Shown here in pieces: positions 4,073 through 49,130 of a stretch of DNA of 64,000 nucleotides. This DNA is from Eutreptiella sp. 'Long Island Sound 2002' (lineage: Eukaryota; Euglenozoa; Euglenophyceae; Eutreptiales; Eutreptiaceae), in assembly GCA_964036045.1 (NCBI GenBank), contig OZ038381.1, forward strand, positions 113,853,790 to 113,917,789, read 5' to 3'. Numbering within the stretch: position 1 is the first letter of the stretch; each line of letters begins with the position of its first letter. A program made the translations under genes and the position numbers. Below the pieces are notes generated by a model. It saw only the letters and a list, made by a program, of their open reading frames with translations. It was not told the origin of the DNA and did no database searches.

Positions 4073-4110
4073 GGAGCATGTCCCCTAGGGCCGTGGGTGG
4101 TTGGTTGTCG

Positions 4111-11700: not shown

Positions 11701-11729
11701 TACCTGCCCCCTAGCGCGGCACCGGGGAC

Positions 11730-14519: not shown

Positions 14520-14744
14520 CCCGGCCGGGACCGACGCGTGAGGTCGATCGAGGAGGTGGCTGAGGACATGTTGGGGACGTTGGAGGAACTCAAAGCCCAG
14601 CAACGTGGTGGACAAAGTATGAGCGGATCGCAGCAGGAGGGAGCTGCGGCAGGCCACGTCTAGAGGAGCCCCCACGGGAGTGGGAACCTGGAGGTCTCTC
14701 CTCAGGAAATCAGTGGAATCCTAGAGAAAGCGAAGGCACATCGG
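14520..14744 (+). pseudogene. Gypsy-1 gag-pol junction with two in-frame stops
   Basis: The last gag frame and the pol frame are the same register, separated only by TGA (14517-14519) and TAG (14661-14663). The codons between and after them read as protein (RSIEEVAEDMLGTLEELKAQ, then EISGILEKAKAHRVPKK). This means gag and pol were once one reading frame, or are joined by stop readthrough. Ordinary decay is the simpler reading for a copy this damaged. Confidence 0.6.
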
Positions 14745-15344
14745 GTGCCAAAGAAGGCTCCAGAAGAGCCAAAACCACTGAGTTTCGCCACTCCCAACCC
14801 CTGCAGCGCCCTGCCAAGGGAAGTGTATGTGGGCAAGGGACGTGGCAAGAAGGAAGGAGCGACCACGGAGAGCCCCGTGGATGGGCAGGACCAGCCCAAG
14901 ATCTGCACCATCCGTGACCATACCCTCGAAGTCCTGATGCACCCGGATGTGCTAGAGTTGCATGCCGTGAGAGTCGTCCATACACCGCAGGGTGACGAGC
15001 GGCAGTTGCACTTGAAGGTGCGTGTACGGTGCGGACAAGAGGAGTTGGTGGTGGATGTTTTGGTAGATACGGGTGCCCAGGTGAGCCTGGTCCGGAGAGG
15101 GTTGTTCAAGGAGGAATCCCTGCAGCCCAGCCGTAGACCGGTACTACTGAAGGTGGTCAATGGAGAGATTATGGGTGGCGGCACCCACGAGGCCCCTATC
15201 AGTATGGAATTCTGGGAGCATGAGCGCTTGAACCGCCCTGATTTGGCGAAGAGAAGCACTCTATCCGGGAGCTTCTATGTGGCCGACATTACAGATTGGG
15301 ATATGATCATGGGGTATGACTTCATGGTGGGAAACGCCATTGGA
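14745..15344 (+). CDS. Gypsy-1 aspartic protease
   Basis: The active-site motif VLVDTGAQVSLV (catalytic Asp at about codon 108 of this segment, nucleotide 15066) is intact. The second conserved block, ITDWDMIMGYDFM, corresponds to the usual ILG-x-D-x-(L/M) near the C-terminus of retroelement proteases. The upstream 90 codons are basic and proline-rich, as at the N-terminus of Ty3 pol. It would cleave the Gag-Pol precursor in the particle. The frame continues without a stop into the spacer domain and RT. Confidence 0.85.
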
Positions 15345-15581
15345 GCCCTTCCCCATCTTACAACGCTGGTCCGGGAGGATAATGAGTGCCTTACATGGCT
15401 TTCGACGGACTATGCATGCGGATCATCCCAATGGAATGCTGAGGAAGAGGATCGGATCGTCCAAGCAGTGCAAGCTGTGGGTGCCAAGTCCAGAGGAGAC
15501 CGCGGAGTTCAGCTCACGGAGTATGGAATGGCGCCGCAGGTGTATGCCAGGATGATCCAGACGCTGGAAGCCGAAGCGCCC

Positions 15582-15959
15582 GAGACGGACGTCTTTGCTT
15601 ACCGGGATGCCCCGCTTTTGAGGAAGTGTAGGAGGCATTGGCATCGAGGAGACTCAGCCTGGCACAGGCATTGGGGTTTGAAGGAGTGGGGGCGCATGTA
15701 TTGGCATGGCTCCCTGGAAATGACCAGACATACGGTGGAGAAGATTGTCGCGGATAGGGCGAAGGGGATCCTGGTCATAACCGGCATAGGATTCACCCCA
15801 TGTCCGCTGGAAGGTCTCAAGTCGACGCTGGGTTCCATCACCCTGAACGGGATGTCATTCGAGCCAGAGGAGGAGTTGTTCATCGAAGCCAAGGGTTTAT
15901 CAATGCCCTCCCCGGGTCAAGCGTGGGGTACCAAGGCTTTCCTGGTGGATGGGGCGCAA
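15582..15959 (+). CDS. Gypsy-1 spacer domain, likely degenerate Dam-like methyltransferase
   Basis: Between protease and RT lies a block (codons about 280-405 of this pol frame) with the layout DVFAYRD, then HW and W residues, MYWHGSL, VEKIVADRAKGILVITG and finally GQAWGTKAFLVDG. Gypsy-2 has a clearly related block at the same place: DAFANREN, then WINPPF, HKIKQDKTQAILVVP and SSLAFLVDG. Gypsy-2 retains the NPPF catalytic motif. Here the equivalent position reads YWHGS, so this copy would be catalytically dead. Homology is inferred from position, order of hydrophobic blocks and the shared FLVDG end, not from an alignment program. Confidence 0.5.
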
Positions 15960-16514
15960 GCCCAGCCCACGGGTGATGAAGCATTCATCCGTAGGGTTGA
16001 GGCGGTGCCCATGAAGGTCATGTTTGAGCCCAAGGAGGGGACCGATCAGCCAATGGATGGCATTGACGTTCTGTCCCACGCTGAAATCGACGACGTCGTC
16101 AACTACATGCGGATGGGGATGCACGACCGTGTAGCAGCCAAGAAGGGGCGGGCCATGGTCACATCTCTGCATTGGTGGGATGACAAGATGTTGGTCACCG
16201 GCAAGTACGAGAAGGATGAGTTCGTGGCGAGGGTCATGGATCACATCGCGGACCAACATGATGGTCCGGCTGGGTCGGACCCGCCGACGTGGGATTCTCC
16301 AAGAATGGGGGCCGGTAGCGACAAGAACTCGGCTGATGCCGCAAATTTCCAAAGATTATCGGTGGTAAGTGCACCCCACGACGATGAAGACAGCATATCG
16401 GACGAGGAGAAGTCGGACTCAGACCCAGAAGAGGCCTACACCGCAGTGCGGTCAGTTGTATCGATACCGAAGCAAGCGGCTGAAGAGGCCCAGGAGAACG
16501 CGAAGGTCGCCGAG

Positions 16515-17560
16515 CTGAGGGAGAGGCTGATAAATGCCTATCCGCGGCTATTCAGTGGCGTCGCCAACGGAAACCCTCCAGATCGTGGGAGGTTTGGCAC
16601 AGTGAGGATCAAGCTGAAGCCGAACCCCAAGATCTATCGTCATCGGGAGTACCAACTTCAGGGCGATCGGGCCGAGGCCATGAAGAAGCTGTTGGCCGAG
16701 TTTATTGAGCGGAGCTGGATCAAACCCTCCGACAGTGAGTGGGCCAGCCCAGCCTTTATCGTGCCCAAGAAAAAGAAGGGCGAGTGGAGGTTGGTGGTTG
16801 ATTACAGGGGTCTGAACAAGCAAACCGAGCACGACTCATACCCGCTTCCTCTGATCGACACCATCCTCCAAAGGCAACAGAAAAAGCGAATCTTCACGGT
16901 GTTAGACCTGAAACAGGGCTATCACCAGATGCCGCTGCACCCGGACTCCAGGCCACGCACAGCGATGTCAACGCCGCTGGGACCCATGCAGTGAAAAGTG
17001 GTGCCTATGGGCGCCAAGAATGGCAACGCCGCTTTCCAGCGCATGATGGAGAACCTACTCGGTGCTGTCCGGGACTGTGCCGACCCCTTTGTGGATGACA
17101 TCATCATCGGGTCCGGCACGGAGGACATGACTGAGGACGAGCTCACCGAAGCGCATGAGAAGGATCTGCGCCGAGTGCTCAGCGAGCTGGACAAGCACAA
17201 CATGGTGTGCAAGCCCACCAAAGCCTCACTCTTCATGAGGGAAGTGGAGTTCGCGGGTCACGTGGTTGGTCACAGGCAACACCGTCCCATGCCTGGGAAG
17301 CGGGCGTCCCTGCACCACTGGGAGAAGCTCCAGACCATCAGCGAACTCCGATCCTTCATGGGGTTCTGCAATTACTATTCGGGCTATGTCCGGATGTATG
17401 CAGAACTATCGGGGCCGCTGCACAAGATGCTGCAGGTGGGGAAGTTCGATGGCCGGAAGGGGAGCAAGAAGAAGCTTGCCTGGACCCCTGAGGCCAAATA
17501 TGCGTTCAGCCGCCTGAAGGAGCGACTCCTGGGGCATCTGGGGCTATTCCTGGTGGACCC
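16515..17560 (+). pseudogene. Gypsy-1 reverse transcriptase, one in-frame TGA
   Basis: The Ty3-type RT order is complete: EFIERSWIKPSDSEWASP, WRLVVDYRGLNKQT, VLDLKQGYHQMPLHPDSR (catalytic Asp), STPLGPMQ, then TGA (16992-16994), KVVPMGAKNGNAAFQRMM and the second motif PFVDDIII (FVDD, with both Asp present). The TGA stands exactly where nearly all Ty3/gypsy RTs have Trp (QWKVMPFGL type). The rest continues in frame through ELRSFMGFCNYYSGYVR, the usual end of the thumb. Apart from the stop, the RT core looks sound. Confidence 0.88.
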
Positions 17561-18300: not shown

Positions 18301-18311
18301 CTGGGGATAAA

Positions 18312-19304: not shown

Positions 19305-19316
19305 GCGTCTTGGTAT

Positions 19317-20113: not shown

Positions 20114-20124
20114 GAGAAGGGGGG
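20114..20124 (+). promoter_or_regulatory. Gypsy-1 polypurine tract
   Basis: GAGAAGGGGGG directly precedes the 3' LTR start TGAAGCC and would prime plus-strand synthesis. Confidence 0.8.
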
Positions 20125-27831: not shown

Positions 27832-28345
27832 CTTGGGAAGAGGCTTATCATCTACGTCCAGAGTGATTTTGAATTTTCGAAGCCAAACTGGATCGTCCAC
27901 TGCATAATTGTGTGGGTTTTTGGGCCATGATTCTGGAACCGGAGCCGGTCAGCCTGATGCTTATCATTAATTTAGTCACATTTTTTGTGACCTTCCAATT
28001 TCGTCCATAAACAGCGAAGCATCTTTGCACGCACGAGGATTATTCAACAGCATTATCTGCCGACACTTCTTTCTTCCAAAGACAGATTCATCTGCAGAAA
28101 GGCCAAGGTACAAAGGCGTGTTGTGGTAAAAGCGAAGCAAAGGAAAGAGGGTCTCGAGCCAATGGAAGTCCTTCTCACTGGCGAGGACCTTACAGAGCAT
28201 ATTTATAAGTGAGCGGCCGGGTCTTTCGCCTGGCAGCGCTCGATGTGATTGGATTTCACACCTGAGTTGATGGATTCCAAGGCGGGTACATAATTCTCTC
28301 CACCATTCGGATCTGTCCTCCTTACCTGAGTCCGTATTCACCTCT
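27832..28345 (-). pseudogene. Integrase fragment of the Gypsy-2 family
   Basis: Minus-strand translation from about 28340 downwards reads SEWWRELCTRLGIH, RALPGERPGRSLINML, ASEKDFHWLETLF and YHNTPLYLGLS. It is close to Gypsy-2 integrase at about 45660-46160 with scattered substitutions, and includes the catalytic-Glu motif GER. It breaks off near 27832, at the point matching the LPLWEGP junction of Gypsy-2, and near 28345, just before the second catalytic Asp region. It is an isolated piece with no LTR nearby, so probably a relic of an older, rearranged insertion in the opposite orientation. Confidence 0.85.
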
Positions 28346-30890
28346 GATGCGGTTCGAGGTTTGATTTTCGGGTACTAGGCGCTCTTCGGCTCCGGGGGGC
28401 CACCTGGTCGGCCCAGGTGATATCCTCCCCACCGGGACCTAGTAGGGGGCCCTTCACGACACACCTCCTGCCTGGTGGCGGAGTATCCCGGGTTCACAGG
28501 GCTCGGAGCCCCGTCCCTGCCCAGCTTCCCCATTTCGCCACTCCTTGGTCAGTGCGTCACTCAGCAACGGTGGTTGCAGGCGACTACCCACCACGCCGCC
28601 CCCCCAATGCATGGTCGCCCCGGGTGCAGGCGGCGCCGGGCCCCTGCTGCTGGCTTGTCGCCAGTGGGACCCCCGCGGGCTGGCGCGGAGGCTGCCTAGC
28701 CGCGGGGCTCATGCGTAGCACTGTGTGCTACTACGGCCATGGCGGGTGCAGTGCCCTGGTGGTGTGCGCCCTGCGCTCGCGGCAGGTCCGGGGGGTCGGG
28801 GCCCGTACCGGCTCTCGCGTCTCCCCTCTGCCCCCCCCCCTTTCCCCGCGCTCCTCGCGGCGCAAGTTGCGGGGCATCCCGTTCGGGTCTCCCTTTTCCC
28901 CGCCTGCCGGTACGCCATTCCATGCGGTCTGTGCACTCCGCAGGCTCGGTCCGGTAGCCTTTCCGGTACGTGCTGCGTGGCCGTTGCGTGCGTGTGCCCT
29001 CGTGCACCCCCAGCTTACCCCCCCCCCCCGGTCGGTGTGGCGCGCGCACCACGCGCGGTTCTGGTGCAGGGCGTTCGTAGGGCCATTCCAGGCGGTTCGT
29101 GCCTCTCCGCGTTTTCTGCCGCGGTCCCGTGCTCCGGGGAGGGGTGGCCCGGTCCCTTCTCCCCCTGCCTGGCTCTGGGTAGCGTGCCCCCTCGTTAATG
29201 GCCCTGTGCGTCCGGGGCGTTCCTGCGTCCGGCGGGTGTGGGGGGGAGGGGGGAGGGCGGCCCGCTTGCCGGCCCCCTTCGGGGCGTGGTTGGGTCCGGT
29301 TCGGTCTGGGGGTCTCGGCGGGTGGGGGGGCGGGGGGTCGCTCTGCCTCGGTCCGTCCCTCTGCCTCCCTTGTACGGGCACCAAGGGAGCCTCGTTGGCG
29401 TCGCTTAGCCCATGGAGGGTGTGGCCTCCATACTGCTCCGGCTACTGTCCGCGCGCTCCTGCTCGGCGCGGCCCGAGGGGGGCGCCTTGGGGCCTTCCTG
29501 TGTACCGGCGAGTGGCTGGCGGGCAGGCTGGCAGGCTGGCAGGCGCTGCGGCTTACCAAGGTCACTGTGGGAGTGGGTGGGTGACGGTCCGGGGGCGCGC
29601 GGCGCGTGGACCCAGCGGCGTGCCCAGCCTGGCGCCCGGCCTCGGGCGCCATGGTCATCTCGGGGGGGATGGGGGGAAGGTGTCCCCTGGCCTCGCGGAG
29701 GGGTACATGGCCGGCGTCCCCCGGCGGGTCACCAGCTCTCCGCGGGCTGGAGGGGGGGGGGGGGGGAGCGGGTCGCGCGAGGGTAGTGCAGTCTGTCTGC
29801 TTCCTACCGGCCCTCCGGTCCATTTCTCGGCTGCGCCGCCCGCCCGGCGGCTGCGGAGGGTGGCTTGAGGGCTTAGGCCCGGGTCCCCACCACGGTTGGG
29901 TTCCCCTGCGTGTCCGGGACGGTTCGTCGTCGTCCGGGCCGCGTGGCACTGGCGCGCCGGCCTGTGTCAGGGGCCACAGCTCGGGGGGGGCGCTCTCCTT
30001 CTTGCCCTGTGACGTGCAAGTGGCTGGGGGGGGGGGGGTGTGCCGCAGGGTGGCCTTATGCGCCCCTTGCCGCGACGTGCCCGGCTGCCAGTTGCCAGGG
30101 GCCCTCCGGCTCGGGAGTGTGTGGTGTCCTCGGGCGCCGGGTGCGGCCTGGGGGGTAAGCAGCTGGCGGGTCGGTCCCTGCCGTCGTGCCCATCGGCGTG
30201 CCGCGTGCCGCTGGCGGCCTGTTACGGTCAGGTTCGGTCGCGGCGCCCCTCCCACTGTGTGCCCTGGCGTGCGGGCGGCCGGGCTAAGGGGTGGGGGGGG
30301 TAGGTCCCGGCTCTGGGGGTGGGTGCCCCTCGGGGGAGCACCGCGGGTCGCTGTTCCGTGCCCTCCCTCCCTGCTCACCGTTCGGGGCCCGGCGCACTGG
30401 GCACCGAGTCATCACCTTGGCCTTCCCCCTGGGTCTCCCCTGCCACCCGCGTCACCGCTTTCGCGTTGTGCAGTGCTTCGGGGGGCGTGTGGGCGGCAGG
30501 GCAGTCTGGGCGCTCCACCCGTCCTTGGATGCAGGCAGGCGCCTTGTGTTCGTGGGCGCTGAGCGCGGCGGCCCGGGCCAGCGCTCAGTGGTCGACGGTC
30601 AGCGGGTCACAGGGACTCCATTGCAGCGCACGCCCGCGCGTCGCGTGCCGCCGGCGTGCGCCTGATTGGCAGCGTCCCTGCTCGTGTGCAGGCAGCGGTC
30701 CAGGCCTCCAAGGGCGGGGGTTACGCTCTTGGCCCACATTTCCTGCTCCGCGGACGGCTCGGAGGGGGCGGGGGCTGCCCAGGGCCGGTGGGCCAGGGCC
30801 TGCCGGGCTGGGGACTCTGGGATGTCGGTCTGCACCCATCCCCCCCCGTGGTTGCCCTCGGGGTCCGGGGCTCGGCCTGCCGGGCGTCGG
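28346..30890. other. Extremely GC-rich DNA, no supported gene
   Basis: Long runs of G and C (for example near 29030, 29750 and 30030) keep many frames open on both strands, up to 560 codons. Composition is that of random GC-rich DNA (Pro/Arg/Gly/Ala) and no motif is visible. A short GGCAGGCT triplication lies at about 29520. It may be 3' untranslated or flanking DNA of the LINE copies above it. Confidence 0.5.
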
Positions 30891-36405: not shown

Positions 36406-37603
36406 TAGGTCATCTCAGGACTGGGATTGCCCCCCAGGGGGGTCTTACCAAGGGGCTTTTGCTCAACCACCCGCGGCCCTAATTCACGTGCCCCGGGAAA
36501 GCGGCTCCCCCACATGGGGGAAGGGCGCGGTCGCCGCGAGCTGTACCCTACTGCAGGCTCTGCCCAGAGAGGTAACCCATGTTCGACCGAAGTCTCACAT
36601 TCCTCTCCTTCAGGCGGATGATACGTGGGGGAGGGTCCCATCGCACATCCTCATCAACCTCCGAATTCTGGGGCCCAGGGGCGCGGAGCCAGGCAAACGG
36701 CCCTGTCCTGCAGGCACTCTCTCCTGGGTTGGTTTTAAGTAGGCGTGAGATGACTCGAAGAAGCACTTGCTACGGGATTCGCATGCCATGACGCGTACTC
36801 ACGCGTCCTGACTCGGTCGAGCTTGCGCTCTCCCGGGGGGCCGGGGGTTCGAAGTAGTTCGTTGCGGTTGGTTGGTTGGTTGTATAATGGTAGAGTTGCG
36901 GTGTTGTGTTGTGTCCGTGGGTATGATCGTCAGCGGGCGTGGCACACTATGGTGTCGCCAACCCGTGGGACGCCGTTCCCGTTTCGACCCTTGCATGCCC
37001 GGCTGGTTTGGTGTTGGCCGGCTTGTGTGTGGTCTGTTCTTTGTCGGGTCGTTTTCTCTGTAGCAGTTTGGTTGGTGCATGGTTGTGCTAGCCGCCTTAC
37101 TGTTCGCGTGTTCGTCCTGGGGTCTTTCGCGCTGCAGCCCGCGCCGGCTCAGCCGGATGTTGTCCTTGTTGTCCTCTCGGTTAATTCTCAGGTTTGTTGC
37201 GGCCCGCCAGTCCGATGTGGCGGTCTTTGGGTTGCAACCGGAGCGTGTCCGGCGCGTTGTGGTGGTTCGCTGTCATCGTAGCCGCCAGTGGTCCACTTGT
37301 CTGGGGTTGTGCTGTGGCCCGTATGGGCCTGGCCTGCCGCGTTTGGTTGCTGTAGGCCGTTCCCTACGCTGTTTGTTTCCTGTCGGGTGTGTGTTGTCGT
37401 GGCTTGTCGGTTTTTGGCGTGTCCGAGTGTGAGGTTGTTGCGTTGTTGCCAGCACTATGCTTGGCTGGTTTTGTTGGTTGGCCGTCGTCTTCGCCGTCCA
37501 ATGGTCGGCTTGTCCTGCTGTCCAATGTGTTGGGCCGTGGTGGCCGTTTTGGGTCGGTTCCGGTTGTTTTGGTTGCGTTCGGCCGCCACGGCATGCTTTG
37601 GTG
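36406..37603. other. No gene seen
   Basis: Between the LINE-B truncation point and the minisatellite I see no convincing coding frame. There is a GGTTGGTTGGTTGT tetranucleotide run at about 36867, and a GGGTTCGAA palindrome-like B-box match at about 36847 without an accompanying tRNA fold. Confidence 0.5.
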
Positions 37604-38216
37604 GTGCATCACCCCCCTCATGGTGGGGCCTGCTTTGGCGGTGCCTGGCCTTCCTCTTGGTGGGGCATGTCCTGGTGCTGCTGGGCCCCCCTCATGGTGG
37701 GGCCTGCTCTGGTGGTGCCTGGCCCCCCTCATGGTGGGGCCTTTTGTGGTGGTGCCTGGCCCCCCTCATGGTGGAGCGTGCTGTGTTGGTGCCTGGCCCC
37801 CCTCATGGTGGAGCGTGCTGTGTTGGTGCGTCGCCCGCCGTCTTGGTGGGGCTGGCTGTGGTGGTGTGTGGCCCGTCTCCTTGGTTGGGCGTACGGTGGC
37901 CTTGCGTGGCGCCCCTCTTGGTGGGGCGTGGTGTGGTGGTGCCTGGCCCCCCTCGTGGTTGGGAATGCTGTGTTGGTGCGCGGCCCCCCGTATGGTGGGG
38001 TGCGCTGTGGTGGTTGTGGTCGTGCATGGCCCCCCTCATGGTGGGGGGTGCTGTGTTGGTGCTTGGCCCCTTTGATGGTGGGGCGTGCGCTGGTGCTGCC
38101 TGGCCCCCCTCATGGTGGGGCGTGCTGTGTTGGTGCCTGGCCCCCCTCATAGTGGGACGTGTTATGTTGGGGCGCGGCCCCCCTGTATGGTGGGGCGTAT
38201 TGCGTTGGTGCGTGGC
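37604..38216 (+). repeat. 37-bp minisatellite (left part)
   Basis: About 16 imperfect units of a 37-bp repeat with core CCCCCTCATGGTGGGGC followed by a TG/GT-rich half and GGTGCCTGG. CTCATGG cores lie at 37691, 37728, 37765 and 37802, exactly 37 bp apart. Because 37 is not a multiple of three, all three frames stay open and give PPHGGA-, PPSWWG- and APLMVG-like text, which is not evidence of a gene. The array resumes after Gypsy-2. Confidence 0.9.
38212..38216. repeat. Target site duplication, left (GTGGC), Gypsy-2
   Basis: GTGGC immediately before the 5' LTR recurs immediately after the 3' LTR at 49131-49135. Confidence 0.9.
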
Positions 38217-38750
38217 TGTAAGTGCGGCTAACCCCCATCTGCTCAGATTTTAGCAGATCTGCCCCAGATTGGCTACATTTTGGCCATTTTATCTGCTTCG
38301 GCGGAATCGCCGCCCCGCAGCTCAGTCTCAGGATCAGACCTATATATTTCTGATGTGCCGGATCTGATTCCGCGGTCCATTCATCGTGAATCCGCCGCGT
38401 TCCGATCATTTACCCGGAATCGCCATTTGCCGCTGACGCGCGTGCGCGAGCCAGATCGGCCAAATATTTTTTCACAATCGGATTTATATAAATCTTTTCA
38501 GATAGATATGGACACTCAGATGTACTTAGGATAATCCGCATCAATTTTCTTTATAGACTGGGATTTTTTGCCGGATAACAATCAGCATGGATCTTGCCTC
38601 CGTTGTCGCCGCTCTTGCCTCCGTTGGTGTCAGTGTATCCTGTTCTGCCCCCAACAGCAGCGTTCAGGTCGACTCCTCGCGTGCCTGCCCCCCCGGTCTT
38701 GCCGGCCCTGAGCCCTCCGGCACCATCAACGACCTAGGGCAGCACTTTCA
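38217..38750 (+). repeat. Gypsy-2 5' LTR
   Basis: 534 bp, TG..CA ends, near-identical to 48597-49130. It contains a TATA element at 38485-38493 and, downstream of it, an ATG at 38587 in good context (A at -3, G at +4) whose frame leaves the LTR. Confidence 0.95.
38485..38493 (+). promoter_or_regulatory. Gypsy-2 LTR TATA box
   Basis: TATATAAAT about 100 bp upstream of the LTR-borne ATG, with a matching copy at 48865-48873. Transcription would be expected to start near 38515-38525. Confidence 0.6.
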
Positions 38751-39468
38751 TGGTAGCAGAGGCTACCTGAATGTTGCTTCAGTGGTCTCTGCTCCACAGC
38801 TCGCTCCCCAGTACGGCCCCGTAGACCCCGCCGCTTCTGGAGAAGTAACGATTACACTGCCTTGGTGCTGCGCGAACGAGGCCTTGAGAGGAATGCCTTG
38901 CGCGAGTCCAAGCTGCCCAAGAAGGGCGCACATCAGCAGCTGTGGAGACCCAGATTACCATAATCCCAGTCGAAACTGGCCATCGAGCAGCTGGAATCCG
39001 CCGGCCTACGACGATGGCAACGCTCCGGTGGAGCTTACGGAGCTGGCAGGTACCAACATTCCTTACGCATGTCCAACATTTGAGACCACGGACGCCGATC
39101 TGAACGACATTGAGATGGGCGGTCCAGGTGAGGTACCTAGCTATAATCGACCAGCCTCTTGGGCACAATGGGACGACCATTTGTCCTCAGAAGTGACCCG
39201 TAGCCTTGAGGCCCTTGAGGCCCTTTGTTACTTAGCCACGTCTAAGCTGATCGAACAAGAAAGAATCGCCTCTGATTTTTTAACGGAATATTTTTTCCTC
39301 CTTCAGAACGAAATTAATACCAGGATGTGGTGGCGTTCTAAAGAAGATGAGTCTTTTGCCATTTTTTGCAGATCTGGGAGGCAAGCCCCTTCCCGAAGGA
39401 GAAGGTCCGGGCACCTGTTCCCGGGCCCTCCGCCCCTCATCCCCCTGTTTCCATTCGCGACGATCTAG
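38587..39468 (+). CDS. Gypsy-2 leader/N-terminal Gag frame starting inside the LTR
   Basis: A 293-codon frame from an ATG in the LTR (MDLASVVAALASVGVS), reading through the LTR end and the primer binding site (translated as HGSRG) into the internal region. The part from about 39050 to 39360 looks like real protein, ending in an acidic-helical stretch (EVTRSLEALEALCYLATSKL, then LTEYFFLLQNEINTRMWW). The plausible protein switches to another frame around 39365-39470, where the next segment begins. A TTTTTTGCAG at 39362-39371 resembles a 3' splice site, so splicing rather than decay is possible. Function unknown, probably matrix-like Gag. Confidence 0.55.
   Translation: MDLASVVAALASVGVSVSCSAPNSSVQVDSSRACPPGLAGPEPSGTINDLGQHFHGSRGYLNVASVVSAPQLAPQYGPVDPAASGEVTITLPWCCANEALRGMPCASPSCPRRAHISSCGDPDYHNPSRNWPSSSWNPPAYDDGNAPVELTELAGTNIPYACPTFETTDADLNDIEMGGPGEVPSYNRPASWAQWDDHLSSEVTRSLEALEALCYLATSKLIEQERIASDFLTEYFFLLQNEINTRMWWRSKEDESFAIFCRSGRQAPSRRRRSGHLFPGPPPLIPLFPFATI
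38751..38763 (+). promoter_or_regulatory. Gypsy-2 primer binding site (initiator Met tRNA)
   Basis: TGGTAGCAGAGGC directly follows the LTR; the first 12 bases match the 3' end of eukaryotic initiator methionine tRNA, as in Gypsy-1. Confidence 0.88.
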
Positions 39469-39797
39469 CCGCCGCGGTTGAGGAGGGAATTTTAGAGGCG
39501 GCCAGGCAGGCAAGCCTGGAAATCAGGGCTGAAGGAGCTCCCCAAGTGGACTCCTGGCTGCGGACCACCGAGATCAGCGGTCCGACAGCCTGCTCAGGCC
39601 CTTCAGGACACGGCATGTACTGTCCTGCCGACTGTTCCTGCAGATTCCAGCGAGATGCTGAGCTCCAAACGCTCAAAGATCAAATGCACCTCATCATTGA
39701 AACGCTGGGAATAAAAAATCTTTTCAAGACGCACATGCGGTCTGAGGGCGCTTCATCGGTGGAACAAGCAACAGAGCCATCGGAGGAGGCGACATAA
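39366..39797 (+). CDS. Gypsy-2 gag, second segment
   Basis: A 143-codon frame in the same register as the main gag, from which it is separated by one TAA (39795-39797). It includes VSIRDDLAAAVEEGILEAAR, a Cys-bearing stretch (PADCSCRF) and QTLKDQMHLIIETLGIKN, likely helical. If the TAA is a lesion, this and the main gag form one protein. No ATG in good context begins it, consistent with its being fed from the LTR-borne frame. Confidence 0.5.
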   Translation: MQIWEASPFPKEKVRAPVPGPSAPHPPVSIRDDLAAAVEEGILEAARQASLEIRAEGAPQVDSWLRTTEISGPTACSGPSGHGMYCPADCSCRFQRDAELQTLKDQMHLIIETLGIKNLFKTHMRSEGASSVEQATEPSEEAT

Positions 39798-41618
39798 ATT
39801 TTTTCAATTGCTCCTTCGGTGGACTCCAGGACCACCGATGCAAGGATCAGCAGGACCAAGCTAAAGGAAAGGGTTAAAATCTCTCGTTCTGAGAGTAGGA
39901 CGGCGAAGGCTAGGACTGAGGCTCAGAATGCCAAGCGAACTGCCTCCCGTACTGCCCCTCCTGCTGCTGATTCCAATACCTTAGCCCAGCTGTTGCTCGC
40001 CCAGACCCTCGCTGGAGCTGGTGTGGCGAATGATGCCGCCAAGGTGTCTGCCATTACGGCCGGTGTTGGGCTGGATTCGCTTCTTAATCCTACTTCCTTG
40101 CGACTTCGTCAGGTTGCCAAGCAACCGAAGTATAATGGGAACCCCCGACGTTGGCCTCAGTTCCAACGGGAATTTAAACTGTGGGTTAAGACTCAAAAAC
40201 TCCAAGATGATCAGTTCCTGATGGCCCTCTTGGATTGCCTTGAGGGAGCGCCGGCCAACACTTGGCTCAGGACTTGGAGTGATCGCGAGGATACAAGTTC
40301 CCCCCTTACCTTTGATGAGGTGTGGGAACAGTTGGAGGTACGTGGATCCCGGCTGCCAGAGGACCACTACCACCAAATGTTGAAGAATTTTCCTTCATTC
40401 TCGCGATTAATCTTGCACGAGGTGCAAGACAAAAAACAGCGCTTCTGGAATTTAGTGGAAGAAGCTGAACATTCAGGCGAAAAATTTTCTAGTGCCGAGC
40501 TGAAAAGTCTGATTTTTGACAAGATCCCCTCAGAAACTGCCGCCACCCTTCGGAACAAACAGTCCGAAGAAAAGGTCAAGACCTGGTGGGCGGAGGTGGA
40601 AGGCTTCGATGCCTCTGCCAACAAGTTTTCCGTCAGGGAGGCACTTCAAAAGTGCTCCCCAACGTCCTTCTCCAAGGTGAAATTCACTGAGGAGACGTGG
40701 AAAATCAAGTTTCATGAACACGAGGATCGGGACTTGTTTGTCCAAGTCCTCAACAGGGGAGTAAGCTTCCATGGCCATCGCCTGAAGGCCAAAAACTGGG
40801 TGTTTTCGTACACCCCGAAGGAACTCTGGGAGGAGGTTGAGCGGCTCGCCGACGCCGCCAACCAGAATTTCCATGACGGTCTTGGGGGAAACAAGAATAC
40901 CCAGCAAAACACCCAAAATGGGGCCCAAAAGGGCAACAAAAAGGTGAATGACACCCGGAATGTTCAGCAGCACTGTAGCATCTGCCTTCTTTTAGGTTCT
41001 ACGAACCGAGCTAAGACGCATTCTACTGATAATCACCGATGGTCTCCTTACGATCACAAGGTGATTGGTGAAAATATCAGTAATTCGCAGAATTCAGACA
41101 GGAATGACAGACAGGTGCACGGTGGGAAGGCTGGAAAAGGGAATCCGACCCCCTCCGGTGGAAACAAAAATCCTGGAGGCCCTGGCGGGTCCCAAGGCAC
41201 AGGAAATCGGACTCCATCCGGCTCCGGTGGGCAGCCGAACGGCCAGAAAAATTCCAATAGCAACGCCGGAGGCGGAAATCGAAATCCAGGTCAAACCCCT
41301 CAATCCGGTGCAAACAAGGGAAATGCTCTGGGATTCCAGGGTAAAGGTAAGGGAAATCCTTCGGGAACCCCTTCCTCTGGTAAGGGCAGAGGGCGTGGCG
41401 ACGGTGGAGGTCCATCATCCGGCGGCCGTGGCCGTGGACGTGGAAAGGGCAACCATCGTGTGGATCAGGTCTCAGGTGCAGATCAGGTGTCCGATGCGGA
41501 CCGAGATTACGTTGAAAATGCCTTGAATCCAGCAGATGATCCGCTCCAAGATGAGTGGGTCGACGAATCAGGGTGTGTCCATAATGTGAACGCAGCCACT
41601 GGAGGTCAGAACGCCTAG
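39798..41618 (+). CDS. Gypsy-2 gag (capsid and zinc knuckle)
   Basis: About 600 codons. A basic N-terminal part is followed by a Ty3 capsid pattern (VAKQPKYNGNPRRWPQFQRE, DDQFLMALLDCLEGAPANTW, EVWEQLEVRGSRLPEDHY). A C-terminal knuckle begins HCSICLLLGSTNRAKTH and has a CX2CX11HX4H arrangement, longer than the usual CX2CX4HX4C. The tail is Gly/Asn/Arg-rich with GRGRGDGGG and GRGRGRGKG. It would assemble the particle and bind RNA. It ends at TAG 41616-41618, with pol continuing in the same frame. Confidence 0.88.
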   Translation: MFSIAPSVDSRTTDARISRTKLKERVKISRSESRTAKARTEAQNAKRTASRTAPPAADSNTLAQLLLAQTLAGAGVANDAAKVSAITAGVGLDSLLNPTSLRLRQVAKQPKYNGNPRRWPQFQREFKLWVKTQKLQDDQFLMALLDCLEGAPANTWLRTWSDREDTSSPLTFDEVWEQLEVRGSRLPEDHYHQMLKNFPSFSRLILHEVQDKKQRFWNLVEEAEHSGEKFSSAELKSLIFDKIPSETAATLRNKQSEEKVKTWWAEVEGFDASANKFSVREALQKCSPTSFSKVKFTEETWKIKFHEHEDRDLFVQVLNRGVSFHGHRLKAKNWVFSYTPKELWEEVERLADAANQNFHDGLGGNKNTQQNTQNGAQKGNKKVNDTRNVQQHCSICLLLGSTNRAKTHSTDNHRWSPYDHKVIGENISNSQNSDRNDRQVHGGKAGKGNPTPSGGNKNPGGPGGSQGTGNRTPSGSGGQPNGQKNSNSNAGGGNRNPGQTPQSGANKGNALGFQGKGKGNPSGTPSSGKGRGRGDGGGPSSGGRGRGRGKGNHRVDQVSGADQVSDADRDYVENALNPADDPLQDEWVDESGCVHNVNAATGGQNA

Positions 41619-41649
41619 GGGAGCCACGAAAATCGCCCCTCCCCAGGCG
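41616..41649 (+). promoter_or_regulatory. Possible UAG readthrough signal between gag and pol
   Basis: The single stop separating gag from protease in the same frame is TAG followed by GG. GGGGAG (starting at the last base of the stop, 41618-41623) can pair with CTCCCC at 41639-41644, and CGCC (41634-41637) with GGCG (41646-41649). A stop plus adjacent downstream structure is how gammaretroviral gag-pol readthrough is arranged. That this one functions is inference; decay is the alternative. Confidence 0.35.
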
Positions 41650-42330
41650 ATTTCAGGCATGATCCCCAGATTCCTTCCCGACCACTACTTGATGTAGGGT
41701 CGCTTGTCTCCTCTCCCCTGGATCCGGCAGCGGATCCTTCTGTTGTAGTGGACGAGGTTGGTGTACAGTCCAAGCACAGGGCCCGTCAGTTTGTCACAAA
41801 GCTGTGGGTCTCTGATTGCAAGGGCAATTTCCACCTCGCCACTTGTTTGTGTGACAATGGATCGGAGGTAAATCTCCAATCCAATTCTTTTTTGCCTGAC
41901 GACTGCGTGTTTGATTCGCCTCATCCTGTTACCCTCGAGGGAGTTTCTGGACATTCTCTCGCAGGTGGGCAACGCGGTTGTTATATATCAACTCATTTGG
42001 TCGCCCAAGACCTTTGGGAAGAAGGTAATGTGGAGGAAGTTATCCTTAAGGATGACTACTTCTATCGTGCCGACATAAAGTATGACCTTTACTTGGGCCA
42101 TCCTTGGCTTCGCAAGAACAGGGTGGCGCCCGTAGGTCATCGGCATTGTTTTTTGCTGGAGTCAGGTCCCTTGGAGCGTCCTGAATTTCGTTTTTTGCAC
42201 GCAGGGTTTAAAAGTGCAGAAGAATTTTTGAAGCAAAATGTTACACCAAAATTTGGCGAAGATGTCACCATTGCAGAGGTGAATGGGAGTGCCGATTACT
42301 CCCGAGAGTTAGAATGTCTTCGTCCGGACT
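41619..42330 (+). CDS. Gypsy-2 protease (DNG active site)
   Basis: In frame after the gag TAG. ATCLCDNGSEVNLQ aligns with the retroviral-type protease motif (D-S/T-G-A/S-x-V), and YDLYLGHPWLRKN with the later ILG-x-x-W block. The active-site Ser/Thr is Asn here (AAT at 41856-41858, one G-to-A change from AGT). The catalytic Asp remains, but the adjacent Ser/Thr is near-invariant, so this copy may be impaired. The frame continues into the Dam-like domain. Confidence 0.8.
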
Positions 42331-42419
42331 CTGAGCCACGACGCCCTTCGCGCTGGCACTCTTCATCCTACAGAGTTGTCGACAAATGGCGCGATGCAAT
42401 TTGTGAAAATTTTTATGAA

Positions 42420-42758
42420 CACCATTCCTTTTGGCCACAGTATGATGCCTTTGCTAACCGCGAGAACAAGCGCTTTGACAAGCACTTTCGCGACGCTTGG
42501 ACCCATAAATGGGACAAGAAGTTATGGATTAATCCTCCGTTTCACTTAATCCAGCAGGTCATCCACAAAATCAAGCAAGATAAAACCCAGGCGATTTTAG
42601 TTGTGCCCTTGTGGGACGACAAGCCTTGGTTTCAGGAATTGCAAGACATTTGTGTAGATTACATCGAACTTCCCAGGAAGATTAAGCTGTATGCCAGGGA
42701 CGACACAGGTCCCCTGCCACAGCGGCCCTGGAGTTCGCTTGCATTCCTGGTGGATGGA
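42420..42758 (+). CDS. Gypsy-2 Dam-like N6-adenine methyltransferase domain
   Basis: Directly after the protease in the same frame: FWPQYDAFANRENKRFDKHF, then KKLWINPPFHLIQQVIHKI, then TQAILVVPLWDDKPWFQELQ. This is the layout of the phage/Dam-type DNA N6-adenine methyltransferase family, also known from DIRS-like retrotransposons: an early D..A...N..F motif, catalytic (D/N)PPF/Y, a helix, a hydrophobic strand ending in P, and a W-F element. NPPF is intact. It would methylate adenine in DNA, perhaps the element's own cDNA, but no activity is shown. The domain ends LAFLVDGKL before an acidic Ser/Asp-rich linker (SDSDSADSSTDS). Gypsy-1 has a degenerate counterpart at 15582-15959. Confidence 0.65.
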
Positions 42759-43065
42759 AAGCTTTCTGACTCTGATTCTGCTGATTCTAGTACTGATTCC
42801 TGTGTTGGGTCTGAATCTGAGGTTGAGCGTGGTACTGATGATGAATCTATTTTTTCTGATTTTTGTCCGTCAGATGCCCAAGGTGATCCAACGTCAAATG
42901 GATCCGCCTCGTCTCCCTCTTCCCCAATACGATCTACATCCAAAAGAATCTACGGCGCACGGACGACAAAAAAATTTTAAATCGCGCCGCAAATTCAGAG
43001 TTTTTTATGAAAAACCCCGTGTGGAAGCTTTCATAGATCTTTTCGAGGAGCTGGATCACGAATAG
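42759..43065 (+). pseudogene. Gypsy-2 acidic linker and frame change before RT
   Basis: The protease/Dam frame ends at TAA 42978-42980 right after seven A (42968-42974). The RT frame is the +1 register and is already protein-like from about 42979 (KSRRKFRVFYEKPR). It passes one TAG (43063-43065) and continues. The A7 run would favour -1 slippage, which gives the wrong register, so I read this as an indel or an unknown +1 site. Confidence 0.55.
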
Positions 43066-44079
43066 AATCTCTGGAATGTCGACACTCGACCCACCTATCT
43101 TCAAGAGGCAGTTGATACGGACCTTTTTAGGGACATCCGTAAGAAGATTCTTCCTGCCAAGGCCGAAGAAATCGCCAATGTTTTTTCAACAGTAATTCCT
43201 GGCGATCAGGTGGACACTGAGTTGTGTTCCAAGAAAAGAGACAAGATTTTTGAGGAACGGAAGGACACAACCCTTTCGGGGAAGTTGATCAAAAACCCTC
43301 CTGTCCGTGGGCAGTTCGGTGAAGCCTTCATCGAGCTTCGTGAAGGGTACAAGGCGAAGAAACAGCGTCCTTATGAGAACCATGGACAGAAACATGAGAT
43401 ACTCAGAAAAAAAATCGAGAGAAATCTCAGGGAATTTGGTTGGCTTGAGGGTTGTATGACCAGCGAGTGGTGCTGTGCACCCTTCACAGTCCCGAAGCCG
43501 CCGCCTGCAGACCAGAACACTATTGATGGTTGGCGAATGGTTGTTGATTTTCGCAACCTCAACGCCAAAACCAAGGCGGATTCACACCCCCTGCCCCTCA
43601 TTGAGGAGGAAATCGCCAAGAGGGCAAGAGGTCTTTTGTTTTCTGTGCTGGATCTCCGTCACGGCTTTCACCAAATGCCGTTGAGGAAGGACAGCCGACC
43701 TCTCACCTGTATGTGCACGCCATGTGGCCCAGTCCAGTGGACGGTCATGCCCATGGGCCTGAAGAACGCCCCTTCGTTTTTTCAAAGAATGATGGAGGAT
43801 GTACTTTTTACAGCTCATCCTGAGCTTCGTGCCTTCGTGAGTGTGTACATAGATGACATAATCATCGCGACAGAGGGGGAGGGACTGACCGAAGCCGAGC
43901 TGGTGGCCCTACATGAAAAGCAGCTGAACCAGGTTTTGGACATTCTTGATGCCAATCAGCTGATTTGTGGGCCAAAGAAGGGAAAATTATTTTTAAAATC
44001 AGTCGAATTTTGTGGTTCTCTCCTTGAGAATGGCACCCGACGACCCAGTCCAGGGAAGCTCGTCGCTATTCAGAAGTGA
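43066..44079 (+). CDS. Gypsy-2 reverse transcriptase
   Basis: Complete Ty3 RT core: LREFGWLEGCMTSEWCCAP, WRMVVDFRNLNAKT, VLDLRHGFHQMPLRKDSR (catalytic Asp), CTPCGPVQWTVMPMGLKNAP, SVYIDDIIIA (YIDD, both Asp present) and KLFLKSVEFCG. No stop interrupts the core. It ends at TGA 44077-44079 after VAIQK. The following codons KRPETITELRGFVGCCNFY are the normal continuation, and the stop occupies the position of the conserved Trp of Ty3 elements. Confidence 0.92.
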   Translation, partial: NLWNVDTRPTYLQEAVDTDLFRDIRKKILPAKAEEIANVFSTVIPGDQVDTELCSKKRDKIFEERKDTTLSGKLIKNPPVRGQFGEAFIELREGYKAKKQRPYENHGQKHEILRKKIERNLREFGWLEGCMTSEWCCAPFTVPKPPPADQNTIDGWRMVVDFRNLNAKTKADSHPLPLIEEEIAKRARGLLFSVLDLRHGFHQMPLRKDSRPLTCMCTPCGPVQWTVMPMGLKNAPSFFQRMMEDVLFTAHPELRAFVSVYIDDIIIATEGEGLTEAELVALHEKQLNQVLDILDANQLICGPKKGKLFLKSVEFCGSLLENGTRRPSPGKLVAIQK

Positions 44080-44832
44080 AAGCGCCCTGAGACGATCACG
44101 GAATTGAGAGGATTCGTGGGTTGTTGCAATTTTTACCACACTTTTGTGCCGAATTATGCCAAATTTGCTGCCCCCCTCACTGAACTATTGAAGGTAGGGA
44201 GAGATGCAGGCAAGGCAGGTTCAAAGGTTCGTGTCAAGTGGACTGACGAGTGCGAGGAGGCCTTCCATCACTTGAAGGCGGCCCTCTGCGAAGTCGCCAC
44301 GTTGCATGTGCCGAAATTCGATCGACCCTTCTACATAAGAACCGACGCTTCTAGGTACGCGATCGGAGCTGTCCTTGAACAGGTTGATGAAGCCACAGGT
44401 GATCATTACCCTCTTGCATTTTGGTCTCGGAAGCTAGCTCCACGCCAGATGCAATGGTCACCGCGTGAGCAAGAGACATATGCCATAATCTGCGCGCTGA
44501 AGAAGTACCAATCGTGGATTGGCACCAATCGAGTCGAGGTCCTGACGGATCATCGATCTCTGGAGTATTGGGCCACCGAACACATTGATACTGTCGCGAG
44601 CCCAGCTGGTCGACGGGCCAGATGGCATGAATTTCTCAGTTTGTTTGACCTCCATGTGTCGTATTTGCCTGGAAAACACAACACGGTAGCGAATGCTCTG
44701 AGCCGATGGGCTTACCCCGCTTCAGAGGGGCTGCAAAGTACCAACATCCATGGTACGGAGCAGGACCGCCACGTCGTAATCGAGTGGGATCAAGAAGAAA
44801 AAAAGCTCATTCGACGTGAATGCATGCAATGA
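44080..44832 (+). CDS. Gypsy-2 RNase H
   Basis: Same frame as RT across the TGA. Thumb end ELRGFVGCCNFYHTF, then FYIRTDASRYAIGAVL (Asp), WSPREQETYAIICAL (Glu), VLTDHRSLEYW (Asp) and LPGKHNTVANALSRWAYP, the standard Ty3 RNase H signature. All catalytic residues seen. It ends at another TGA (44830-44832), after which the frame again reads as protein towards integrase. Confidence 0.9.
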   Translation, partial: KRPETITELRGFVGCCNFYHTFVPNYAKFAAPLTELLKVGRDAGKAGSKVRVKWTDECEEAFHHLKAALCEVATLHVPKFDRPFYIRTDASRYAIGAVLEQVDEATGDHYPLAFWSRKLAPRQMQWSPREQETYAIICALKKYQSWIGTNRVEVLTDHRSLEYWATEHIDTVASPAGRRARWHEFLSLFDLHVSYLPGKHNTVANALSRWAYPASEGLQSTNIHGTEQDRHVVIEWDQEEKKLIRRECMQ

Positions 44833-45243
44833 TCTGTTAAACAGCATGCATTACCGTGTCACGACATCAGGGCCTTCTCAGATCCGGCGCATGCCCATGA
44901 GATCGTCACCAAATCACTGAAAGTCGTGGAGAAAGTCACCGATCCCTCCTCAGGGAGTGTGAAACGGTTCGAGTATACCCGACCAGTAAGTGGATTTCGG
45001 TTGATTCAGGGCATCGAGCGTCAAGATCCGGCCAAAACTCCACCCCTGCCGAAAGATTCCCTTATCATCCGTGACTGGACGAACGATTATTCGAATGATT
45101 CCATGTTTAAAGAGGTCTTTGAGAATCTCAAATCCAAAGATGCTCACAAGGATGGAATTTATTCTGAATATTCGTTGGATGGGGGGAAGCTGTGGATGGA
45201 GGGTAAGTTGTGCGTACCAGACGCCCTGGCCCCCGAGTGTTAA
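44833..45243 (+). CDS. Gypsy-2 RNase H-integrase linker
   Basis: Continues in frame after TGA 44830-44832: ALPCHDIRAFSDPAHAH, VSGFRLIQGIERQDPAK, DGGKLWMEGKLCVPDALAPE. The last phrase is the usual lead-in to the integrase zinc finger (short strand followed by V-P). A frame change occurs at about 45237, where the protein moves to the register used at 45210-46804. Confidence 0.7.
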   Translation, partial: SVKQHALPCHDIRAFSDPAHAHEIVTKSLKVVEKVTDPSSGSVKRFEYTRPVSGFRLIQGIERQDPAKTPPLPKDSLIIRDWTNDYSNDSMFKEVFENLKSKDAHKDGIYSEYSLDGGKLWMEGKLCVPDALAPEC

Positions 45244-46804
45244 ACTGGTGGCACAAATGGGAGTCCCCCCACGCACATGGCCGTAGATTATGGTCGATGA
45301 TTAAACATAGGTTGTTCGGCTCAAGGCTATATACTCATTGTATGAAAGTAGCCGCCGGATGTGCCCAATGTGCTGTCTCGACGCCCCCCAGCGCGGAGAA
45401 GCACGGCCATCTGAGGCCACATTCTATTCCGGAGCGCCTCTTTAACAGCGTCACCAGTGATTTTTTCTATCTTGGTGAACTCGACGACGAAGAGTGCCAT
45501 TGGACCAACAAAAAGGTCAATGGAGTGCTCCTTATTCAGTGCCGTCATTCCGGCTACATTCAGGTGTTGCCTTGTAACATCGAGTCGATGACTGGCAAGG
45601 CTGCCGCCAAATGGTGCGCGCAGACCTGGATGGGAGGTTGGGACGTCCCATCCGAGGTGATTACGGACTCAGGTAAGGAGTACACCTCCGAATGGTGGAG
45701 AGAATTATGTACCCGCCTTGGAATCCATCACCTCAGATGTGAAATCCACTCACATCGAGCGCTGCCAGGCGAAAGAGCCGGCCGCTCACTTATAAATATG
45801 CTCCGTAAGGAACTCGCCAGTGAGAAGGACTTCCATTGGCTTGAGACTCTTTTCGCCATGCTTCGCCGTTACCACAACACGCCTTTGTATCATGGCCTTT
45901 CTCCAAATGAAATTGTTTTTGGACGAAAGAAGTGTTGGTGGAACATGCCGTTGAATAATCCTCACCCTTGTAAAGATGCTTCGTTGTTTTTGAACGAAAT
46001 CCAACGAGCAGAAAAAACTGTCTCGAAATTAATCGATAAGCACCAAGCTGACTGGCTTTGGGTCCAGAATCAAGGCCGAAAAAACCCCCACAATTTTGAA
46101 GTCGATGATCGAGTTTGGCTTCGAAAATCCGAAACGACCCTGGACGGAGATGATAAGCTTCTTCCCTTGTGGGAGGGACCATTCGCAGTTACAGCGCGTC
46201 TAGGTGAGAACAGGTGGAGGATTCGTGTGGATGTCAGCAGGGAAATTGAAGTTTCGGGCGATCGCCTCAAGAGAGAGATCCCCTCCCCCAAGGATCGGGT
46301 TAAACCCCTTTTTTGGACTTCGAAATTTTTGTCCGATCGGGTCATCGAAGGGGGGAAGTACGAACTCAAGAGGATTTTAGAAGCAAGATGTGACGAAAAG
46401 GGGGAACGGGAATTTCTATGTGAGTGGAGGGGCTTTGATTCCAGTCACAACAACTGGGAACCAGCCCATTCTTTTGTCCATGGGTACACCAAGGGGTTCA
46501 TCGACTTCCTCAAGAAGCACCCCGAAATTGGCGTACTCCTGACAGACTGCCTGTCGAAACCCGACAGACAGGTGGAGAGCGACGGAAAAAGACCTGTGGT
46601 GAATCGAGATCCAGCCTTTTACGGCCCTCAGCAGCCACATTCCAAGGCTGATCCGTCGATCCCCCCTCCTGCGGTCAGGCCAGCCCAGGAGCCTAATGAA
46701 GACCAAGCTTCGAGTTCGGCCGCTGATTTGCAGCGCCCAAGCCGTACGAGGGCCCCACCAGATAGGTTGGCGGTCACATGTATTCGTGCTTGGCCCAATT
46801 GAGG
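45210..46804 (+). CDS. Gypsy-2 integrase and chromodomain
   Basis: About 530 codons. A zinc region (WWHKWESPHAHGRRLW, then CAQC) precedes the catalytic core. VTSDFFYLG (Asp about codon 84), VITDSGKEYTSEWW (Asp about 153) and LPGERAGRSLINM (Glu about 188) give DD-x(34)-E spacing. Then follow RVWLRKSETTLDGDDKLLPLWEGPF (a GPF-type C-terminal domain) and the chromodomain (YELKRILEARCD, EFLCEWRGFDSSHNNWEPAHS). A disordered Pro/Ser-rich tail closes the protein at TGA. Chromodomain integrases tether insertion to marked chromatin. The fragment at 27832-28345 is a relative of codons about 150-310. Confidence 0.93.
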
Positions 46805-48585
46805 GAGACCCGTCGTGACTTGAGTCGCCGACGCCATAATCTGGGTAACAGTCGTCTAGTCCAGGGCGTCATGGCACTCGTCGCTAGGGCTCAAGGGTGT
46901 AGGTTCGAAACCCTTGCATGTCCAACTCCTACAAAAGCTCCAGCCTTGCCCCGTCGACCACTTATTCCAACGTGAGTGTTCTGACGACTTGAAAAAACCA
47001 CATTCTGCTCAATCCACTGTTCATTCTTCCTGATTACGACATGATGTGGAGAACTGCGAATGTTTGATAATTTGACGTCAATCAACTTTTCTTTGGTCTC
47101 CGTTCGGCAGACAAGGCGTAGATACGCTGCCGAAAGCCACGGAGTGTGCTGCCGTGTCCAGAAAAAACCAAACTCAGGCTTAATTCAGGCAGATCCGGGG
47201 TAATCTTGTCTCTGTTGGTCTGTGCATCTTTGGAATTTGGCTACTCGTGCAGATGGAAGCAAATGTACATAGTAAAAACGCTGCGCAGCGACATTCACCC
47301 CTACAGGCACCCCCTGTAGTACTGGCTGCACTAGATGCGACGCCAGGAACACAGATCTTACCTTCATTTGCCGTGATGCTGAAGCCAAAGTCCAGATTCA
47401 GATCCAGATTCCTTGAATTTACCTTGAATTCCTCAGGTTTGTCCATCATTCTGCGCAACAGTTGTTCAGACAACCAAAATACACCGAAGCTACACCGAAT
47501 GTATTTTTGGCACACGCCAATGTGAGCTCAATCCGACCTGAAACTGTCGAAAATGGTGAATCCAAGTGTCTTGTGGGACTCAATCGAAGGATGGGCCTTG
47601 TCCAAGTCGATTGACACCGCCGCCACTGTAAATAAAGGACTATTCGGTGTCTCTCAGTTACATACTGTCAGTAAAGCGCCTTCAGCGAACCTTCGGCGCG
47701 TTACATGCCAAGGATCCAGGGCCATCATGTCCCATCATGATGCATCATCACATGATCCACAATTTCATGGAATCTGTTGGATGCTCGCGAACCAACGTGC
47801 CGGAAAGCACAAGTCAGCTGAATAAACGACAATATACATTAACTTTAGTCTAAACGAAGGTGTTAGTAGTTTCAGTTCTAGACATTCCGCTTCATTTCAC
47901 CTTCATCTGAGGGAATTTGCCTCATTTTAGGACAGTTTAGGTTGATTTCCTTGTCATCTCCTCTCATTCAACGAAGTTAGGCAAGTTAGGCGAAGTTAGT
48001 TCGTTGACGCTGATGTTTTTCTGTTCACTTAGGGCCTGCAGACTACATTTGTATTGTTTTCCCTCTCTGTGATTGTTTCATCTCCTTCATCTCTGCTCAA
48101 ATTGATTCTCAATCTTGCTTAATCTTGTGATCATCCACCAGATGCGCCAAATCTAAAGCACATGCTGCACTTTTCAGAACGAGAAAAGCGGGAGTAACAC
48201 GATGTAGAGTACGTGGAGGACACCGTAGCGTGCCCGCGACAGCTAAACTGTGCCAGAGCGCCGAGATGTCACTCCATTTCTTGATTCTCCCACTCAATCC
48301 ACCAATAATCTACCTCATTCTCAATCAGGGCATGGTTTGGTATCGATTCTCGATACGTTTACATGCTTTTTAGCCCTTAACCTAATGTTTTACTGCACGG
48401 AGGACTGTTCGTCACTCCTCATTCTGTCTCATTTCAGGTTCATCCATCCTGATTCAGTGCCAATTCAGCCCAAATCAGGTCAGATCAAGCAGATTTCGCC
48501 CCATCGAGGCTACATTTCTATTTTTTTCTGGGACTTACCCGCACTAAGTTCTTCGTTGACGTAGCGACACACCCCAGTGTGTTTT
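46805..48585 (+). other. Gypsy-2 3' untranslated region
   Basis: 1.8 kb without a convincing gene, AT-richer than the host DNA. Near 46850-46935 there is a TAGTCCAGGGC and a GGTTCGAAACC, resembling Pol III A and B boxes, but the flanking bases do not fold into a tRNA. The rest shows only short, unremarkable open frames. Confidence 0.6.
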
Positions 48586-48596
48586 AGGAGGGGGAG
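48586..48596 (+). promoter_or_regulatory. Gypsy-2 polypurine tract
   Basis: AGGAGGGGGAG immediately before the 3' LTR start TGTAAGTG. Confidence 0.85.
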
Positions 48597-49130
48597 TGTA
48601 AGTGCGGCTAACCCCCATCTGCTCAGATTTTAGCAGATCTGCCCCAGATTGGCTACATTTTGGCCATTTTCTCTGCTTCGGCGGAATCGCCGCCCCGCAG
48701 CTCAGTCTCAGGATCAGACCTATATATTTCTGATGTGCCGGATCTGATTCCGCGGTCCATTCATCGTAAATCCGCCGCGTTCCGATCATTTACCCGGAAT
48801 CGCCATTTGCCGCTGACGCGCGTGCGCGAGCCAGATCGGCCAAATATTTTTTCACAATCGGATTTATATAAATCTTTTCAGATAGATATGGACACTCAGA
48901 TGTACTTAGGATAATCCGCATCAATTTTCTTCATAGACTGGGATTTTTTGCCGGATAACAATCAGCATGGATCTTGCCTCCGTTGTCGCCGCTCTTGCCT
49001 CCGTTGGTGTCCGTGTATCCGGTTCTGCCCCCAACAGCAGCGTTCAGGTCGACTCCTCGCGTGCCTGCCCCCCCGGTCTTGCCGGCCCTGAGCCCTCTGG
49101 CACCATCAACGACCTAGGGCAGCACTTTCA
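48597..49130 (+). repeat. Gypsy-2 3' LTR
   Basis: 534 bp, equal in length to the 5' LTR, with six differences visible (for example A/C near 38291 versus 48671, G/A in CATCGT(G/A)AATCC, and two changes in GTC(A/C)GTGTATCC(T/G)). The LTR-borne ATG frame is conserved here too but runs into flanking minisatellite. Confidence 0.95.

Follow-up and report, generated by a model that had tools for sequence, protein, structure and literature searches.

A phage Dam-like adenine methyltransferase domain between the protease and reverse transcriptase of a Ty3/gypsy-type retrotransposon, with a homologous domain lacking the catalytic motif in a second element

Analysis of a 64,000-nucleotide stretch of contig OZ038381.1 from the euglenophyte Eutreptiella sp. 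'Long Island Sound 2002' (hereafter, the window) identified a long terminal repeat (LTR) retrotransposon of the Ty3/gypsy type with a C-terminal chromodomain, in which the segment 42369-42758 of pol, located between the protease-like region and the reverse transcriptase (RT), is confirmed by profile comparison and a predicted fold as a domain related to phage Dam-type adenine methyltransferases (Table 1). A preliminary description made from the letters alone had proposed a Dam-like domain at this place in such an element, and both the assignment and the location are upheld; of the extent that it gave, 42420 to 42758, the 3' end stands and the start does not, the domain beginning slightly earlier. 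A homologous domain without the NPPF motif, which that description had overlooked, is present in the other Ty3/gypsy element of the window. On balance, we favor, with some confidence, a reading of the segment as a compact methyltransferase domain acting on adenine N6, of the phage Dam/PCIF1 type, that was acquired once and most likely serves self-methylation in the lineage that carries NPPF.

The strings DAFANREN, WINPPF, HKIKQDKTQAILVVP and DKPWFQEL follow one another in the order first reported within a single open frame (41619-42980), with motif IV, NPP[YF], intact, the D-x-x-A...N motif preceding it and the P/W motifs following it. Pfam Dam (PF05869) is the sole family with E<=1 in this frame (E 9.3e-4, 19.3 bits); the isolated domain scores 21.6 bits (E 1.8e-4), and the window copy is thus under the Pfam gathering cut-off of 28.1 bits. 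Such weak single-sequence scores would fit a chance likeness, that is, an ordinary pol linker resembling Dam at a few residues, and so would the tblastn search of the domain against 50,697 phage records, in which 319 records matched at E up to 10, the best at 0.4 and none significantly. We nevertheless regard chance as highly improbable because, of these 319 records, 17 of the 20 listed are annotated as methyltransferase or methylase at the match, and because the hhalign comparison of the retrotransposon profile with three phage Dam proteins (T1-type) yielded E 6.9e-8 over 118 columns at about 28% identity, compared to a best E of 0.04 in 60 column-shuffled controls; the three proteins, which themselves match Pfam Dam at 2e-47 to 2e-63, were taken from the top tblastn matches, which biases this comparison slightly in its favor. 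Pfam Dam is matched by all 11 domain sequences examined from three subfamilies of the element family (best E 7.9e-6), and one relative, P0023, carries a precomputed PF05869 label. Over the 118 columns, the domain shares with phage T1 Dam and its relatives the order and identity of the motifs D-x-[AF]-A...N, W, W[IL]NPP[FY], K, P and W; unlike the phage enzymes, it resides in a retrotransposon pol and has NPPF instead of NPPY. The positions that are invariant across the three phage proteins are preferentially conserved in the element family (21 of 37, against 22 of 81 other positions; odds ratio 3.5, one-sided p 0.002), and the shared conserved positions include D38, N45, W60, W65, N67, P68, P69, K79, P92 and W99, in the numbering of a 148-amino acid (aa) piece.

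The AlphaFold model of the domain (pLDDT 79.6, pTM 0.78) has the predicted Rossmann-type methyltransferase fold expected of a Dam-like domain, and its confidence together with the matching fold hits further argues against chance likeness. Among the 23 BFVD matches with E<=0.001, nine are named N-6-adenine methyltransferase and one methyltransferase, three are PCIF1/WW proteins of giant viruses, and 10 are unnamed or uncharacterized. The Foldseek search of the PDB retrieved PCIF1 (CAPAM), the cap-specific adenosine methyltransferase that acts on RNA, as the top match, with a best E of only 6e-3. The profile and structure comparison that had been suggested as a check on the assignment thus turned out in its favor: the Dam profile is matched, by the window copy below the cut-off, and the model resembles phage adenine methyltransferases as well as PCIF1. 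PCIF1 has the NPPF motif too but is larger, with chains of 467-494 residues, and its family gave no sequence match at E<=1 in the 11 of 11 domain sequences scanned, the likeness being one of fold only.

Given that the fold and the NPPF form of the motif point to PCIF1, an RNA substrate deserves consideration. The domain might be a PCIF1-like RNA adenine methyltransferase that marks the transcripts of the element, with cap-proximal or internal N6-methyladenosine (m6A), and thereby evades host RNA surveillance or steers packaging; we take this to be one of the less likely explanations, though worth keeping in view. Marking of the element's own complementary DNA (cDNA) appears slightly preferable to marking of RNA because, in its sequence, the domain is more similar to Dam than it is to PCIF1.

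Conservation within the NPPF family was assessed with one representative for each of the subfamilies A, B and C, giving three identity values per region. The Dam-like domain is 58, 52 and 46% identical between subfamilies, free of gaps, the protease region 69, 48 and 39%, and the first part of the RT 68, 57 and 43%; the respective values are 46, 26 and 21% for the linker upstream of the domain and 37, 25 and 15% for the linker downstream. Thus, the domain is conserved roughly as the protease and the RT are, and above the flanking linkers. The motif census covered 69 proteins, among them P0069, an unbroken relative of 1056 aa that encompasses the protease-like region, the domain, RT and RNase H and represents 964 database sequences; the domain is present in 66 of these proteins, and the motif is covered in 54. 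Conservation of NPPF in related copies, the lack of which would have refuted the assignment according to the preliminary description, is found in most of them: 39 of the 54 covering copies have the exact motif and 15 deviate, while the domain as such is conserved across all three subfamilies. The N, P, P and F columns are conserved at 89, 89, 96 and 91%, respectively, compared to a median of 75%, and rank 51, 51, 15 and 41 among the 130 columns; the motif is retained, yet other columns of the domain are more conserved. Many census rows are decayed single copies; the representatives of two larger clusters also deviate, with NRPF in P0044 (126 sequences) and NLPF in P0005 (106 sequences).

The second Ty3/gypsy element belongs to a separate lineage, the RTs of the two being about 41% identical. 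Within the window, tblastn searches with P0069 and P0051 also match 15000-15953, a stretch running across the protease and the homologous domain of this element (E 5.8e-8 and 8.8e-10; 20-22% identity). The two domains align with each other in hhalign at E 1.5e-8 (best of 60 shuffles, 0.026); in a ranking of 310 window open reading frames (ORFs) by hhalign, the domain of the second element comes second, at E 6.6e-6, after the first element itself (the next ORF, 0.0077), and reciprocal HMMER searches among 963 window ORFs gave 4.4e-5 and 1.3e-4. With this significant profile-profile match and the same position in pol, the two domains are assigned to one family. At the position of WINPPF in the first family, the second has MYWHGSL, and NPP occurs in none of 121 rows (the best 120 of 217 proteins plus the window copy). 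The domain without the motif is 74-75% identical between the subfamilies of its own family, next to 74-79% for the protease, 72-75% for the stretch behind it and 49-54% for the linker before it; the largest cluster of this family, with P0079 (1321 aa) as the representative, comprises 4545 sequences.

These observations bear on another explanation, namely that the domain of the first element is by now non-catalytic, with a structural or nucleic acid-binding role as in the second element, and that NPPF is a remnant under weak constraint. The sister lineage, which retains the domain although NPPF is lost in all of the rows considered, and the deviating copies of the first lineage are compatible with this possibility. 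It is, however, at odds with the sharing of NPPF by most copies of three subfamilies that are only 46-58% identical in the domain and with the preferential conservation of the phage-invariant, active site-like positions; furthermore, many of the deviating copies are single decayed ORFs, as expected of pseudogenes. We therefore deem loss of catalysis in the NPPF lineage rather unlikely. Three results weigh against the kinship of the domain of the second element: the profile of the second element compared with phage Dam gives a negative result (E 0.42), Pfam Dam matches none of eight domain sequences of the second family, and fold prediction for the domain of the second element failed.

Under the scenario of a single acquisition and self-methylation, the equal position and homology of the domain in the two lineages suggest that it was gained once, by their common ancestor before the split, after which one lineage would have kept the catalytic motif and the other would have lost the motif while retaining the domain. 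In the NPPF lineage, the enzyme would be made with the RT and be attached to, or packaged with, the protease, the RT, and the RNA and cDNA of the element, which makes the element's own nucleic acid the likely substrate. Adenine methylation might then mark the new cDNA or the element RNA such that it is tolerated by the host. Judging from the lost motif of the sister lineage, catalysis is not required for such elements to spread. A bolder formulation, in which the pol of this host's Ty3/gypsy elements contains a PCIF1/Dam-type writer of ancestral origin that is still active and places a self-mark (m6A or N6-methyladenine, 6mA) on the RNA or cDNA of the elements, alongside a far more numerous sister lineage with a dead module, we put forward only tentatively. 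If it is valid, LTR retroelements would bear an adenine writer together with a natural active/dead pair suitable for testing its purpose. The domain occurs in high-copy LTR elements, with or without the catalytic motif depending on the lineage, so that methylation and mobility could be compared in one host, and element-encoded adenine marks may need to be considered in 6mA or m6A mapping of such genomes.

Dam-type domains inside pol have been described in DIRS1-like tyrosine-recombinase retrotransposons, where they were detected with PF05869 (in a passage of PMC3783388). Why retroelements acquire nucleic acid methyltransferases is an open question, and the function of the DIRS domain is stated to be unknown in a passage of PMC3266345. 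In DIRS1, according to passages of PMC3783388 and PMC3266345, the methyltransferase lies behind RT and RNase H, in an element without a protease or a DDE integrase, whereas the window domain precedes the RT in an LTR element with an integrase and a chromodomain; this comparison is by description only. DNA methyltransferases are also carried by KnitGypsy-Dnmt3, a Ty3/gypsy element of Klebsormidium, and by SymbioDIRS-Dnmt and SymbioLINE-Dnmt, a DIRS and a LINE element of Symbiodinium (passages of PMC5890265). KnitGypsy-Dnmt3 thus resembles the window element in being a Ty3/gypsy element with a methyltransferase but differs in that its enzyme is of the C5-cytosine type, and these C5-cytosine enzymes are described as structurally unrelated to Dam (same passages of PMC5890265). 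No paper placing a Dam-type domain between the protease and the RT in Ty3/gypsy elements was found in our literature search. Caution regarding novelty is warranted by a passage of PMC6338049 that is ambiguous on DAM in Ty3/gypsy elements, the preceding sentence assigning DAM to DIRS and DCM to both. Thus, Dam-type domains in DIRS elements and C5-cytosine enzymes in Ty3/gypsy elements are known, and the window domain, a Dam-type one flanked by the protease and RT of a Ty3/gypsy element, is apparently a new variant. With its chromodomain, the first element is a candidate chromovirus, the name given to it in the preliminary description; a passage of PMC12477816 warns that, in brown algae, Gypsy elements with a chromodomain do not belong to the chromoviruses.

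Table 1. Positions of the two Ty3/gypsy elements and their parts in the window
Feature	Position	Strand	Evidence and remarks
Complete LTR element, Ty3/gypsy type	38217-49130	+	LTRs of about 534 bases, TG...CA ends
5' LTR, TG...CA	38217..38750	+	Paired with 3' LTR; GTGGC flank
gag-like ORF	39798..41618	+	Ends TAG, in frame with next pol ORF; Pfam match weak
ORF with protease-like region and Dam-like domain	41619..42980	+	ORF list, Pfam scan, family alignment
Dam-like adenine methyltransferase domain, 130 aa, YRVVDKW to LVDG	42369..42758	+	Pfam PF05869, hhalign, AlphaFold model, fold searches
NPPF motif codons	42531..42542	+	NPPF exact in 39/54 covering copies
RT piece, broken pol	43066..44079	+	RVT_1 E 1.6e-26; in-frame stops 43063, 44077
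RNase H piece	44080..44832	+	RT_RNaseH_2 E 1.1e-30
Integrase and chromodomain piece	45207..46802	+	rve E 4.4e-6 (below cut-off); Chromo E 2.6e-6 (above cut-off)
3' LTR	48597..49130	+	Purine-rich tract immediately upstream
Second Ty3/gypsy element	9059-22572		LTR-like repeats about 9059-11686 and 20124-22572
Second element pol ORF: protease, homologous domain, RT start	14664..16994	+	PF13975 E 0.0011 (below cut-off), RVT_1 E 2.3e-12
Second element homologous domain	15522..15965	+	hhalign E 1.5e-8; WHGS (15702-15713) replaces NPPF

The first element is assigned to the Ty3/gypsy type on account of its LTRs, its target duplication and the arrangement of its pol domains (protease-RT-RNase H-integrase), with the protease recognized by motif and alignment only. 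The two LTRs are 98.7% identical (538 aligned columns), and the element is flanked at both ends by the 5-bp target duplication GTGGC. Downstream of the 5' LTR there is a TGGTAGCAGAGG stretch, which we take to resemble a tRNA-Met primer site. The gag-like ORF has a weak match to DUF1759 (E 0.0058, under the Pfam cut-off); the TAG at 41616-41618 separates gag and pol in the same frame, the arrangement of elements with stop-codon readthrough. The protease-like region is defined by the motif CDNGSEVNL...LGHPWL and by alignment with the second element, and Pfam gave no protease match at E<=1 in ORF 41619-42980. The usual active-site triad of such proteases is DTG or DSG; here, near 41850, the site reads DNG, as it does in most aligned relatives covering it, with DTG in P0018 and in the second element. 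The chromodomain behind the integrase scores 27.7 bits against a cut-off of 25.1. The pol of the window copy is broken, with a frame change near 42967-42977 and stops at 43063, 44077, 44830 and 45241.

A tandem array of 37-base units (37590-38196, 16 copies, 75% matches) abuts the upstream side of the 5' LTR, and short array-like stretches are also found just downstream of the 3' LTR; with such sequence on both sides, the element seems to have been inserted at or into an array. The fragment 27835-28349 (minus strand) shares 85% identity with 45649-46166, in the integrase region of the first element, and is accordingly another degraded copy of the family. In the second element, the LTR-like repeats are roughly 2.4-2.6 kb long, in three pieces that are 91-95% identical, and the chromodomain match, at 23.3 bits, is just below the cut-off of 25.1. 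Elsewhere in the window, an ORF at 2207-4084 (minus strand), separate from both Ty3/gypsy elements, matches reverse transcriptase (RVT_1, E 3.6e-12), and 58690-62840 is taken up by a large tandem array (period about 418 bases, 10 copies, 76% matches).
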